NCBI RefSeq assembly: GCF_000336935.1
Contig: NZ_AOME01000070.1
Location: 1-64,000, forward strand
Direction of reading: 5' to 3'
DNA from: Halococcus salifodinae DSM 8989
Lineage (GTDB): Archaea > Halobacteriota > Halobacteria > Halobacteriales > Halococcaceae
DNA length: 64,000 nucleotides
Part shown: positions 50,198 to 54,235 of the stretch, piece by piece
How positions within the stretch are numbered: the first letter of the stretch is position 1
Layout: each line of letters opens with the position of its first letter
Notes under the pieces: model-generated
Database searches by the model: none
What the model was told of the DNA's origin: nothing
The model's input: the letters and a program-made list of their open reading frames with translations, nothing else
Position numbers and translations under genes: made by a program

Positions 50198-51258
50198 AGC
50201 TCACCCCGCCGGTACTGGCTGTAGAGATACGGGATCACGACCAGCAACGCGAGCACGTAGAGCACGATCGCGATCGCCGAGCCGTACGCCCAGTTCTGGT
50301 TCGAGTACGCCTCTCGGACCATGAACGTCGCGAGGATGTCGGCCCCCGCAGCCGGCCGGTACTGGCCGAACAGCGCGTAGAGGAAGTCGAACGCCTTGAG
50401 CGCCGCGATCATCAACACGACGAGCGCGCTGATCATCGAGCCGCGGAGCTGGGGCACGATCACCCGCCAGTACATCTTGACGGTGCTCGCGCCGTCGATG
50501 CGTGCGGCCTCGAAGTGCTCGTCGGGGATGGTCTGGAGCCCCGCGAGGAAGACCACCATGGTGTAGCCGCTGAACTGCCAGACCAGCGCGAAGATCACCG
50601 CGCCGAGCACCAGTTGGGGATTGCCGATCCAGTCGGGTTGGAGCCCGACGACGCCGAGAATCGAGTTGACGATCCCGTTTTCGATGTCGTACATCCACGA
50701 CCAGAGCTGGGCCGTCACCACAAAGGAGAGGCTGAACGGCAGGAGGTACAGCGTCCGGAACGTGTTCTGAAAGCGGATCGTCCGATCGAGCAGGATCGCG
50801 AGCACGAGCCCGAGCACGATACACAGGATCGTGAACGCGACGAGCAGCACGAACGTGTTGCGCGCGGCGTCGATGAACGTCTGGCTCGCGAACAGCTCGG
50901 TGTACTGCTCGAAATCCAGCGAGGTGTACTCGGGATCGCCGAACCCCTCCATGTCGGTGAGCGAGATGAGGAAGTTCCACCCGATCGCGCCGTAGACGAA
51001 CAGCCCCATCAGGAGGAACGGCGGGAGCCAGAACGGCAGCGAACTGACGAACCCGCTCTTTCGGAGCGATCGGAGCCATCCCGATCGGCTCGTGGCGGTC
51101 GAACTGGAGCCGCCGCTCACGGTCGCACCGCCATCGGTGCGGACCGCGTGTGCGTCGTCGCTCGATCGGTCGTCGGAGCCGGGGGTGAGCCGCTCGCCGA
51201 ACCCACGAAGCCTCGATCGCACCGACCGATCGTCGTCAGTTCGATCCGGAGACGGCAT
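50194..51258 (-). CDS. ABC transporter permease, CUT1 (XacH/MalF type)
   Basis: A 354-residue permease with an unusually long polar, Ser/Asp-rich cytoplasmic N-terminus (~75 residues) followed by six membrane segments; the EAA-type loop is HFEAARIDGASTVKMYWRVI. Its start overlaps the substrate-binding protein gene by 23 bases and its stop overlaps the next permease by 4, so expression is tightly coupled. Confidence 0.88.
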   Translation of the reverse strand: MPSPDRTDDDRSVRSRLRGFGERLTPGSDDRSSDDAHAVRTDGGATVSGGSSSTATSRSGWLRSLRKSGFVSSLPFWLPPFLLMGLFVYGAIGWNFLISLTDMEGFGDPEYTSLDFEQYTELFASQTFIDAARNTFVLLVAFTILCIVLGLVLAILLDRTIRFQNTFRTLYLLPFSLSFVVTAQLWSWMYDIENGIVNSILGVVGLQPDWIGNPQLVLGAVIFALVWQFSGYTMVVFLAGLQTIPDEHFEAARIDGASTVKMYWRVIVPQLRGSMISALVVLMIAALKAFDFLYALFGQYRPAAGADILATFMVREAYSNQNWAYGSAIAIVLYVLALLVVIPYLYSQYRRGEL

Positions 51259-52678
51259 CGAGCATCCCCTGAGTTGCGGCGTCGAGGTCTCCCGAGCCGA
51301 GGAAGGAATCGGTGATCACGCCGTCGATCTCGCTGTGGACGTCCGGCAGCACCGCGAGACCGTGAGCGATCGTCGGCGGCTTGTTCGAGACGTTGTTGTA
51401 GTCCTCGATGGTCTGGGTGAGGTAGGGATCGAACTCGTCGGTCGGCACGTCGGTCCGCGGCGGGATCGACCCCTTGAACTGGTTGAAGCGGACCTGCGCG
51501 TCGGGCGTGCCGACGTACGAGAGCCACGCCTGTGCGGCCCCGGAATCGCCCGCGCTGGCTGCCATCGGGAACGAGTCGAGATGCAGCCCGTACATGTCGT
51601 CGGTGCCGGGGAAGGAGACGTTGTTCCAGTCGGACTCGTACTCGAAGCCCTCCTGGTTGCGGTACGCGCCGGCCACCCAGTTGCCCTGGTGCATGAACGC
51701 GGCCTCGCCGTTCATGATCAGCTGGTTCGCCTGGGTGAACCCGACGCTGGAGGCGTTCTGGTTGATGTGATCGAAGTAGTTGTTGACCATCTCGAACGCC
51801 GAGCGCACGGCCTGTTCGTCACCCTCGCCGTTGATGTAGTCCATGAACGGCTGGTAGCCCGCCTGACCCTGCATCACGACCTCCCAGAGCTGGAGCGTGG
51901 TGAAGGGGGCTTGGAGACCTTGGGCCATCCCGACCGCGTCGGTTTCCTCCTCGACGGTCTTCATCGCCGCGAGGAGGTCCGCCGGCTCGGAGAAGCTCGT
52001 GGGGTCGACGCCGGCTTCTTCGACCACCGAGACGTTGTAGAACAGGTCGTTCATCCGGTGGGAGCCGATCGGGACCGCGACGTAGGGACCGCTCCCGATC
52101 GAGCCGGCTTCTTCGCCGACCTGGGAGTAGGTTTTGGCTTCCTGGGAGTAGTTGTTCCGGAGATCGTCGGTCCAGACGTTCTCGCCGACGTCAGCGAGGA
52201 GTCCGGCCTCGGTGAACGGAACGAGGTTGAGCCCCGGCCAGTCCGCCCACGACGTGGGGAGGTTTTCGTTCTGGGCGCGGTTGGAGATGGTGGTGTCGAG
52301 GTTGGTGTTGCCACCGCCACCGATCGCCTGGAAGTTCGCGCTGACGTCGGGGTTGGCCTCTTCGAACCCCTCGACGAGGTTTTCGAGGGCCGTCGCGCCG
52401 TCACCGCCGGTCCAGCCGTGCAACACGGTGAGGCTTCCGCTACTGCCGCCACTACTGCTTCCATTGGAGCTACTGCCGTTGCCACCGCTGCCGTTCCCGC
52501 TGCTTCCGCTCCCGCTGCTGGCGTTGCCACCGCCACTACCGTTACCACCGCTGCCGTTGTCATCGCCGCCACCGCCGCCCGTACAGCCGGCGAGACCGGC
52601 CATGCCGACGGTGCTTGCTAGCGCTGCGCGCTTCAGGTACGACCGCCGTGACTGTCCCGGGTCCGAATCCTTCATCAT
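51236..52678 (-). CDS. ABC transporter substrate-binding lipoprotein (XacG-like)
   Basis: A 480-residue exported lipoprotein. It begins with a twin-arginine signal (SRRSYLKRAALAS) ending in the lipobox GLAGC. A Gly/Ser/Asn-rich linker of ~45 residues follows, then the sugar-binding domain (SLTVLHGWTGGDG to the end) of the CUT1 type. It would capture a mono- or oligosaccharide outside the membrane. ATG 52678 (or 52675) is chosen because the Tat motif follows; an upstream extension to 52837 does not look translated. Located between xylonate dehydratase and the permeases. Confidence 0.9.
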   Translation of the reverse strand: MMKDSDPGQSRRSYLKRAALASTVGMAGLAGCTGGGGGDDNGSGGNGSGGGNASSGSGSSGNGSGGNGSSSNGSSSGGSSGSLTVLHGWTGGDGATALENLVEGFEEANPDVSANFQAIGGGGNTNLDTTISNRAQNENLPTSWADWPGLNLVPFTEAGLLADVGENVWTDDLRNNYSQEAKTYSQVGEEAGSIGSGPYVAVPIGSHRMNDLFYNVSVVEEAGVDPTSFSEPADLLAAMKTVEEETDAVGMAQGLQAPFTTLQLWEVVMQGQAGYQPFMDYINGEGDEQAVRSAFEMVNNYFDHINQNASSVGFTQANQLIMNGEAAFMHQGNWVAGAYRNQEGFEYESDWNNVSFPGTDDMYGLHLDSFPMAASAGDSGAAQAWLSYVGTPDAQVRFNQFKGSIPPRTDVPTDEFDPYLTQTIEDYNNVSNKPPTIAHGLAVLPDVHSEIDGVITDSFLGSGDLDAATQGMLDAVSGSN

Positions 52679-52996
52679 CGTAAATCCGTACCATCGTCCG
52701 TAACAGAAGTGTAAAACGCTTTCGCAAGCTTTACTCACGCACGAGTTCACTCGCAAAAATCGCTCGACACGAGCCGTATCGCTGTCGATGCTCAGTGGAG
52801 CGATGGCGACTTCACTCAGTAATCTACCAGAATTCACAGAACTGACCGAGTCCGTTCGTCCTCCCGGAACTGGTCGAGGATTCGATAGTTCGACCTCGCT
52901 TCGCTCAGTCGAACGTCGTGGAACGATGTTCCACGAGCTCGATGCGGCTACGCCGCATCGAACAGGGCAAATCGGAGATTTGCTGGCTCGACGAAG
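52679..52996. other. spacer between the dehydratase and substrate-binding protein genes
   Basis: About 318 bases with no ORF of quality. The right-hand third contains most of the tandem hairpin array listed separately. The part next to 52678 presumably carries the promoter and leader of the ABC importer genes; no strong TATA match was recognised. Confidence 0.5.
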
Positions 52997-53010
52997 CTAC
53001 GCTTCGTCGA
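52888..53010. repeat. tandem array of five inverted repeats (hairpins)
   Basis: Five hairpins lie head to tail: 52888-52914 (7-base arms, long loop), 52916-52936 (9-base arms, loop GAT), 52939-52961 (10-base arms, loop TAC), 52967-52983 (7-base arms, loop GGA) and 52988-53010 (10-base arms, loop TAC). The stems differ in sequence, so they are not copies of one repeat, but four share a 3-base loop. The last overlaps the stop codon of the dehydratase gene. Likely RNA structures that affect processing, stability or termination between the dehydratase and importer genes. Confidence 0.75.
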
Positions 53011-54235
53011 ACAGCTCCTCACCGTCGATCATGTGTGCTTCGACCGCATCGAGATCGAGCGTCAGCCCGAGGCCTGGCTTCTCGGGCACGTCGATCGAAC
53101 CGTCCTCGATCACGGTCTCCTCGACGAGGTCCTCCCACCAGCCGAGCTGGTAGGAGTGGTACTCGACCGCGAGCGAGTTGGGGATCGCCGCGCCGACGTG
53201 CGCGCTCGCCATCGTCGCCACCGGCGAAGAGACGTTGTGCATCGCCACCGGGACGTAGTAGGTGTCGGCCATATCGGCGATCTTTCTGGTTTCGCGCATC
53301 CCGCCTACTTTGGGGAGGTCTGGCGCGATCACGTCGACGGCCTGCTCTTCGAGGAGGCGGCGGTGGCCGTGCTTGCGGTAGACGTTCTCGCCGGCGGTGA
53401 TCGGGACGGTCGTGGACTGGCTGACCTCGCGCTGGACGTCGTGGTTCTCCGGCGGCACTGGATCTTCGAGCCACCAGACGTCGTAGTCCTCGACCGCGCG
53501 CGCGATGCGCTTCGCGCTCCCGCCGGAGAAGGACCAGTGGCAGTCGAAGGCGGCGTCGGCCCGGCCGTCGAGGCGTTCGGTTACCGCACGGACGATCTCG
53601 GCTTTGTGGTCGATCTCGGCGTTCCGGAGGTGGCGGTTCGCCTTGTCCTTCTCGTGGCCCGAGGGCACGTCGAGGTCGAACTTCAGCGCGTCGTAGCCCA
53701 ACTCCTCGACGACGCGTTCGGCCTCGTCGGCGTTCGCCTCGGGGTCTGCCTCCTCGCCGGCGTGACAGTCGCAGTACACCCGGACCTCGTCGCGGTACTT
53801 CCCGCCGAGGAGCTGATAGGCCGGAACCTCGAGGATCTTGCCCGCGAGGTCGTGGAGCGCGATCTCGATCCCCGAGATCGCGGTGACGACCGTGCCCTCG
53901 ATCGAGCCCTCGCCCGACATCTTCTGGACGAGGTGCTCGTACAGCCGATCGAGGTCGAGCGGGTTCTCGCCCACCACGAACGGCGTCATCCGCTCGATGA
54001 CTTCCGGAACGCCCGCCCCCCAGTAGGCCTCGCCAGTGCCGACGATGCCCGCGTCGGTGTACACCCGCACGAGGGTCCACGGGAAGTTGCCGTCGACCAT
54101 CGTGGTCTGCACGTCCGTGATCTCGACGTCTCGTCCGCCGCCGCGCTTCGCACGGACACCCATCGTTCCAGCCGAGAGATCGCGCATCGTGTACTCGGCG
54201 TTCGGATCGTGGAGCTGTGTGTAATCGACCGGCAT
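52997..54235 (-). CDS. xacD: D-xylonate / L-arabinonate dehydratase (enolase superfamily)
   Basis: A 412-residue mandelate-racemase-type dehydratase. Key segments are LVRVYTDAGIVGTGEAYWG, LKFDLDVPSG (Lys region), FDCHWSFSGG and WWLEDPVPPEN (metal-binding acids), and MHNVSSPVATMAS. It matches the haloarchaeal dehydratase XacD, which converts xylonate or arabinonate to 2-keto-3-deoxypentonate. Its C-terminus ELFDEA lies within the last hairpin of the adjacent array. Next upstream on the same strand is a zinc alcohol dehydrogenase gene (55 bases away), so both are likely co-transcribed. Confidence 0.9.
   Translation of the reverse strand: MPVDYTQLHDPNAEYTMRDLSAGTMGVRAKRGGGRDVEITDVQTTMVDGNFPWTLVRVYTDAGIVGTGEAYWGAGVPEVIERMTPFVVGENPLDLDRLYEHLVQKMSGEGSIEGTVVTAISGIEIALHDLAGKILEVPAYQLLGGKYRDEVRVYCDCHAGEEADPEANADEAERVVEELGYDALKFDLDVPSGHEKDKANRHLRNAEIDHKAEIVRAVTERLDGRADAAFDCHWSFSGGSAKRIARAVEDYDVWWLEDPVPPENHDVQREVSQSTTVPITAGENVYRKHGHRRLLEEQAVDVIAPDLPKVGGMRETRKIADMADTYYVPVAMHNVSSPVATMASAHVGAAIPNSLAVEYHSYQLGWWEDLVEETVIEDGSIDVPEKPGLGLTLDLDAVEAHMIDGEELFDEA

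Follow-up and report, generated by a model that had tools for sequence, protein, structure and literature searches.

Template switching is a published route by which hairpins are created and maintained and their arms homogenised (PMC8794818, PMC8604942). In haloarchaea, hairpins able to end transcription are known from Haloferax volcanii, where one hairpin gave 59% termination in reporters (PMC7237163), and bacterial hairpin clusters have been reported as intrinsic terminators (PMC8355165). Fungal and algal organelles carry short hairpin-forming palindromic repeats, some with two hairpins per element, which are described as dispersed or mobile (PMC2670323, PMC7218506).

When the two sides of a stem change in a compensatory way, a functional RNA is usually held to be proven. 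We describe here a natural, phylogenetically broad hairpin array with strong stem covariation but without a bias towards G-U pairs, which can help to separate selection on RNA from copying of arms at the DNA level, and which ties the C-terminus of a protein to repeat turnover. It lies at the 3' end of xacD in the window, a stretch of 64,000 nucleotides of Halococcus salifodinae DSM 8989 (contig NZ_AOME01000070.1, positions 1 to 64,000). None of the 4227 Rfam models matched the array at E<=1, and a search of the open-access literature found no published description of it.

Architecture of the array and its repeat unit

The name xacD is used on the basis of family resemblance below curated cut-offs and the label in an earlier note on this DNA. 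NCBIfam relatives of the product are gluconate/galactonate dehydratases, below the curated cut-offs, and plasmid homologues are annotated as members of the mandelate racemase/muconate lactonizing enzyme family. The features of the locus are as follows; R1 is a covariance model of the repeat unit, and units 1 and 2 of the window also belong to its training set.

52997-54235, minus strand: xacD-type sugar-acid dehydratase, open reading frame, enolase superfamily, 412 aa, C-terminus ...ELFDEA*
52997-52999, minus strand: xacD stop codon TAG, in the loop of hairpin A1, with its G as the first base of the second arm
52963-53011, minus strand: unit 1, hairpins A1 and B1, overlapping the xacD end; R1 68.9 bits, E 1.3e-13 (training unit)
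52988-53010, minus strand: hairpin A1, 10 bp, sense loop GTA, holding the xacD stop codon
52967-52983, minus strand: hairpin B1, 7 bp, sense loop TCC
52914-52962, minus strand: unit 2, hairpins A2 and B2, starting TTCGATGCGGCGTAG; R1 70.5 bits, E 5.4e-14 (training unit)
52939-52961, minus strand: hairpin A2, 10 bp, sense loop GTA
52916-52936, minus strand: hairpin B2, 9 bp, sense loop ATC
52888-52914, minus strand: hairpin of partial unit 3, GTTCGAC/GTCGAAC, 7-bp arms, 13-nt centre with an inner GC-GAA-GC
51236-52687, minus strand: sugar-importer substrate-binding protein gene, the next co-directional gene, starting ~310 bases past the xacD stop

Of the five hairpins in 52888-53010, four are perfect with 3-base loops and the fifth pairs 7 bp around a longer loop. 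This confirms the earlier note, which had counted five inverted repeats in about 120 bases, four of them with 3-base loops, and had placed the xacD stop codon in the last one. That hairpin, 52988-53010, is A1, the first in sense order, and the TAG lies in its loop.

The array is built from a 49-nt unit that is present in two diverged copies and, incompletely, a third time; 52937-52965 and 52986-53014 are 79% identical at a period of 49. Each unit opens with the xacD end TTCGACGAAGCGTAG (F-D-E-A-stop) followed by its reverse complement, which together form hairpin A with the stop codon in or beside the loop. A spacer of 3-4 nt, the smaller hairpin B with its 3-nt loop and a short linker complete the unit. 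The last four xacD codons and the stop thus open unit 1, whose start (TTC GAC GAA GCG TAG) is identical to the gene end. Unit 2 starts TTC GAT GCG GCG TAG, which would read F-D-A-A-stop if joined to the gene, and unit 3 starts TTC GAC TGA (F-D-stop). The stems do differ in sequence, as had been remarked; they were held to be unlike repeat families for that reason, yet they belong to a tandem repeat that recurs every 49 nt, and they differ between units because both arms changed together.

The xacD-sense strand, 53014-52884, has all five hairpins in succession in its minimum-free-energy fold. The RNA fold reaches -74.3 kcal/mol (z -9.6) and the DNA fold -45 (z -7.8); none of 200 shuffles was equally stable. 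Read directly in the window sequence, the array is not followed by a T-run of the kind that marks archaeal intrinsic terminators, and the first run of five Ts lies ~240-250 bases past the xacD stop.

Short-loop hairpins elsewhere in the genome

The earlier note mentioned similar palindromes in other haloarchaeal intergenic regions, and such palindromes do abound in this genome. Across a 350-kb stretch of the same contig, on which the genome hairpin statistics were computed, 58 hairpins with 3-nt loops and arms of at least 9 bases were seen, against ~4.3 expected by dinucleotide shuffling, and 50 of the 58 lie between genes predicted with a home-made gene finder. For loops of 4, 5 and 6 nt at that arm length the expectation is 4 to 5, and 8, 10 and 6 were counted. 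Three hairpins of the long-armed, 3-nt-loop kind fall within the array itself, in 95 bases. The others belong to separate islands.

These islands on contig C70 (for example 73570-73690, 90175-90465, 113554-113686, 126820-126990, 153461-154470 and 201658-201826; L106-L123) are intergenic, their stems recur at several places, and their loops are mostly GAA, TTC and GGA. They are a class separate from the xacD array, with which they have the short-loop style in common. One island recurs with its order unchanged at 73570-73690 and 126820-126940, where some hairpin loops are reverse complements of each other (GAA in one copy, TTC in the other). In the Halococcus stretches reverse-complement loops occurred in 13 of 100 flank-matched hairpin pairs, a number for which the loop repertoire makes chance likely; overall, loop flips did not exceed what that repertoire leads one to expect. 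Some C70 features, at 237067-237107 and near 74118 and 201772, are assembly traces: a palindrome with an N in its loop, which we take to be a Nextera mosaic end, and single-N joins with duplicated flanks.

Hairpins across a stop codon (arms of at least 7, loops of at most 4) were found at 2 of the 290 predicted genes of C70 and were rejected as a general feature. One is that of xacD, with a 3-nt loop; the other lies at 279547-279566, at the end of the gene 278062-279558 (plus strand), and reads GAAGCCGA ctga TCGGCTTC with a 4-nt loop.

Palindromes arising by chance in a high-GC genome would be a trivial explanation, and short palindromes of 7-8 bp are indeed near chance level across the whole window. 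The stability of the array fold, its recurrence in 17 genera and the covariation of its arms leave this explanation with almost no probability, and the relatives had already refuted it.

Distribution among haloarchaea

In a class-wide draw of 116 haloarchaeal genomes from 45 genera, R1 had matches at E<=1e-6 in 34 genomes, which belong to 17 genera. The genus of the window has ten genomes, and the named close relatives are Halococcus. Of 28 unit loci fetched, 27 were xacD 3' ends, and the strong units there are in sense orientation, running from the gene end. Units at xacD mostly begin at the last four codons and tile head to tail with a period of ~49-53 nt; two loci (L346, L347) have longer arrays, with at least four units in repeated A/B combinations. 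A 24-mer of the partial unit 3, searched with at most one mismatch, matched 7 of 39 genomes, in all 7 at xacD loci.

At least one unit (E<0.01) lies around xacD in 49 of 88 homologues placed on a tree. The other 39 lack the array, some of them in close sisters. With gains and losses pooled, the tree calls for 21 changes of the array label, and for 29.1 with the labels shuffled (0 of 500 shuffles as low); the array is therefore inherited but often lost or regained. Most array-less orthologues likewise end in FDEA codons, and the sequence thus belongs to the gene itself.

Insertion of a mobile short palindromic element, similar to REP or double-hairpin elements, at gene ends reading TTCGACGA would account for the related units found in two genomes at the end of a second, unrelated gene, encoding a type II DMSO-reductase iron-sulfur subunit (TTCGACGAT or TTCGACGAA), and it would fit a Halococcus genome that has dispersed multi-hairpin islands with recurring stems. 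The concentration of the loci argues against it: one gene accounts for 27 of the 28, and matches at E<1e-6, checked by position and sequence, lie at xacD ends in 10 non-Halococcus genomes. In the present genome strong R1 matches are confined to the array, where a mobile element would show many dispersed copies, the dispersed islands have other stem sequences, and no transposase or target duplication was identified. We therefore regard insertion as improbable. An exact search with the A motif, which matched nowhere in the genome beyond the two focal copies, led us to reject a dispersed element. The earlier suggestion of a mobile short palindrome cluster is half borne out: the unit is a repeat, but it is nearly bound to the xacD locus, with rare copies at a gene of similar end.

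The lone exception among the 28 loci is a gene of the type II DMSO-reductase family for an iron-sulfur subunit, whose end, TTCGACGATGCGTGA, is similar to that of xacD; given such units, the unit need not have originated at xacD alone. Genes for iron-sulfur subunits of this type at L331 and L307/L321 end in TTCGACGA and have similar hairpin units, and the end of one such gene, in another genome and identified by sequence likeness only, carries a three-copy tandem repeat of 57 nt. The generic pattern TTCGACGA...TCGTCGAGC was discarded: by eye, the listed matches were mostly ordinary coding sequence, and its only use lay in spotting this second gene.

Separation of enzyme and transporter expression had also been proposed. 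Among the loci examined, the importer binding-protein gene follows xacD in five Halococcus loci only, and the fetched flanks of 44 of the 49 array-bearing xacD loci contain no match to it. A role between enzyme and importer is therefore not general, and we rejected it as such.

Covariation and mismatches in the stems

Covariation among relatives, a check that the earlier note had called for, revealed a conserved architecture with strongly compensated arms, so the structure withstands the refutation by relatives that the note had proposed. In an alignment of 21 units, 13 of 18 pairs show double-sided changes, with 72 double-change cells against 23.1 when shuffled. Pairing is 96% in register and 26-39% with the partner slid by 1-3 columns; these units were chosen partly for pairing, which inflates the pairing level and does not by itself explain the double changes. 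R1, too, was trained on units picked partly for pairing, and units of related species are not independent. Unit 1 of H. morrhuae departs from the most frequent stem at several pairs, while its two arms match each other. The arms thus change together, several pairs at once, as template switching would have it.

When RNA pairing is under selection, G-U mismatches are expected to exceed A-C mismatches. Among 88 distinct sense units, with the codon-locked end pair excluded, the mismatches are strand-symmetric, 31 G-U against 37 A-C (p 0.54 against equal numbers, 4e-10 against an assumed 80:20; both values are rough, as the units are not independent). Without a G-U excess, the pairing does not appear to be kept specifically or mainly as sense RNA, and it is not tied to one RNA strand, which is likewise what template switching predicts.

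These counts bear directly on a conserved RNA element in the 3' UTR, whose hairpins would stop transcription past xacD or slow it, or would block decay from 3' to 5', with selection acting on RNA pairing. The sense orientation of the strong units from the gene end, the very stable RNA fold, the survival of pairing through double changes and the reported terminator hairpins of Haloferax volcanii and bacteria are all consistent with such an element. The mismatch counts argue against it, as do the 39 homologues without an array, the lack of an Rfam match and the distance to the first T-run in the window. We consider such an element possible but doubtful. The array may stabilise the upstream transcript, as the earlier note suggested, but the missing G-U excess argues against RNA-level pairing as the main thing that is maintained. 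The evidence favours upkeep of the array at the DNA level over an RNA role.

Probable unit turnover and the C-terminus of XacD

Related species differ in their units. In relative G007 the gene ends with the sequence that opens unit 2 of the window, giving FDAA, and the gene end of H. thailandensis looks chimeric, its left half coming from unit 1 and its right half from unit 2. Among Haloferax sister species XacD is near-identical, yet the units vary in number and type and the proteins end in FDEA or FDEE. An in-frame stop is kept at the gene's stop position in 39 of 44 downstream units, a sequence that the model itself favours. C-termini other than FDEA showed no significant association with presence of the array (Fisher p 0.82), and a link between the array and unusual C-termini was rejected.

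In a bolder reading the array is a store of swappable gene-end cassettes: every unit brings in-frame last codons and a stop, loss or gain of units would change the C-terminus and stop of XacD, and template switching would keep the cassettes palindromic. We hold this to be rather unlikely; if true, a locus-bound, class-wide hairpin array would be editing the end of one enzyme.

Discussion

Hairpin arrays of conserved architecture stand at the xacD end in many genera, their arms change in concert and their units differ between related species. On these sequence comparisons, the array is probably, by a modest balance of likelihood, an old tandem repeat at the xacD end that undergoes turnover of whole units and whose arms are kept complementary by template switching in replication. 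Recombination or slippage between copies would lose and gain units, and turnover could set a different unit against the gene, so that its C-terminus and stop become FDEA, FDAA, FDEE or FD. The arms would stay complementary mainly through template switching at the hairpin, one arm being rewritten from the other. The array would be transcribed as the 3' UTR of xacD and, as a side effect, may make transcription pause or stop, or delay decay. Such an RNA role is possible, if unproven, and a 3' UTR effect is plausible given the terminating hairpin of Haloferax volcanii (PMC7237163). The array has persisted for long at a single gene end (49 of 88 homologues), more than pure mutation would readily keep, and some selection on it is therefore plausible as well.

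A parallel exists in histidine-kinase-like genes of Haloferax, Halorussus and Halorientalis (L251, L260, L261), so named from sequence motifs read by eye, which contain in-frame tandem (N/D)AVEHGST repeats. Their DNA forms alternating short-loop hairpins within the coding sequence, where a 3' UTR role is impossible.

The terminators of Haloferax volcanii are likewise haloarchaeal hairpins, whereas the array has no directly following T-run in the window. Compared with the organelle elements (PMC2670323, PMC7218506), the unit is nearly locus-bound and carries the last codons and stop of a gene. From hairpins attributed to template switching (Monttinen and Loytynoja 2022, PMC8794818; Abraham and Hazkani-Covo 2021, PMC8604942) it differs in forming tandem two-hairpin units at one gene end in many genera, for which we infer the mechanism; perfect short-loop stems, multi-base compensatory change and homogenisation of arms are common to both.
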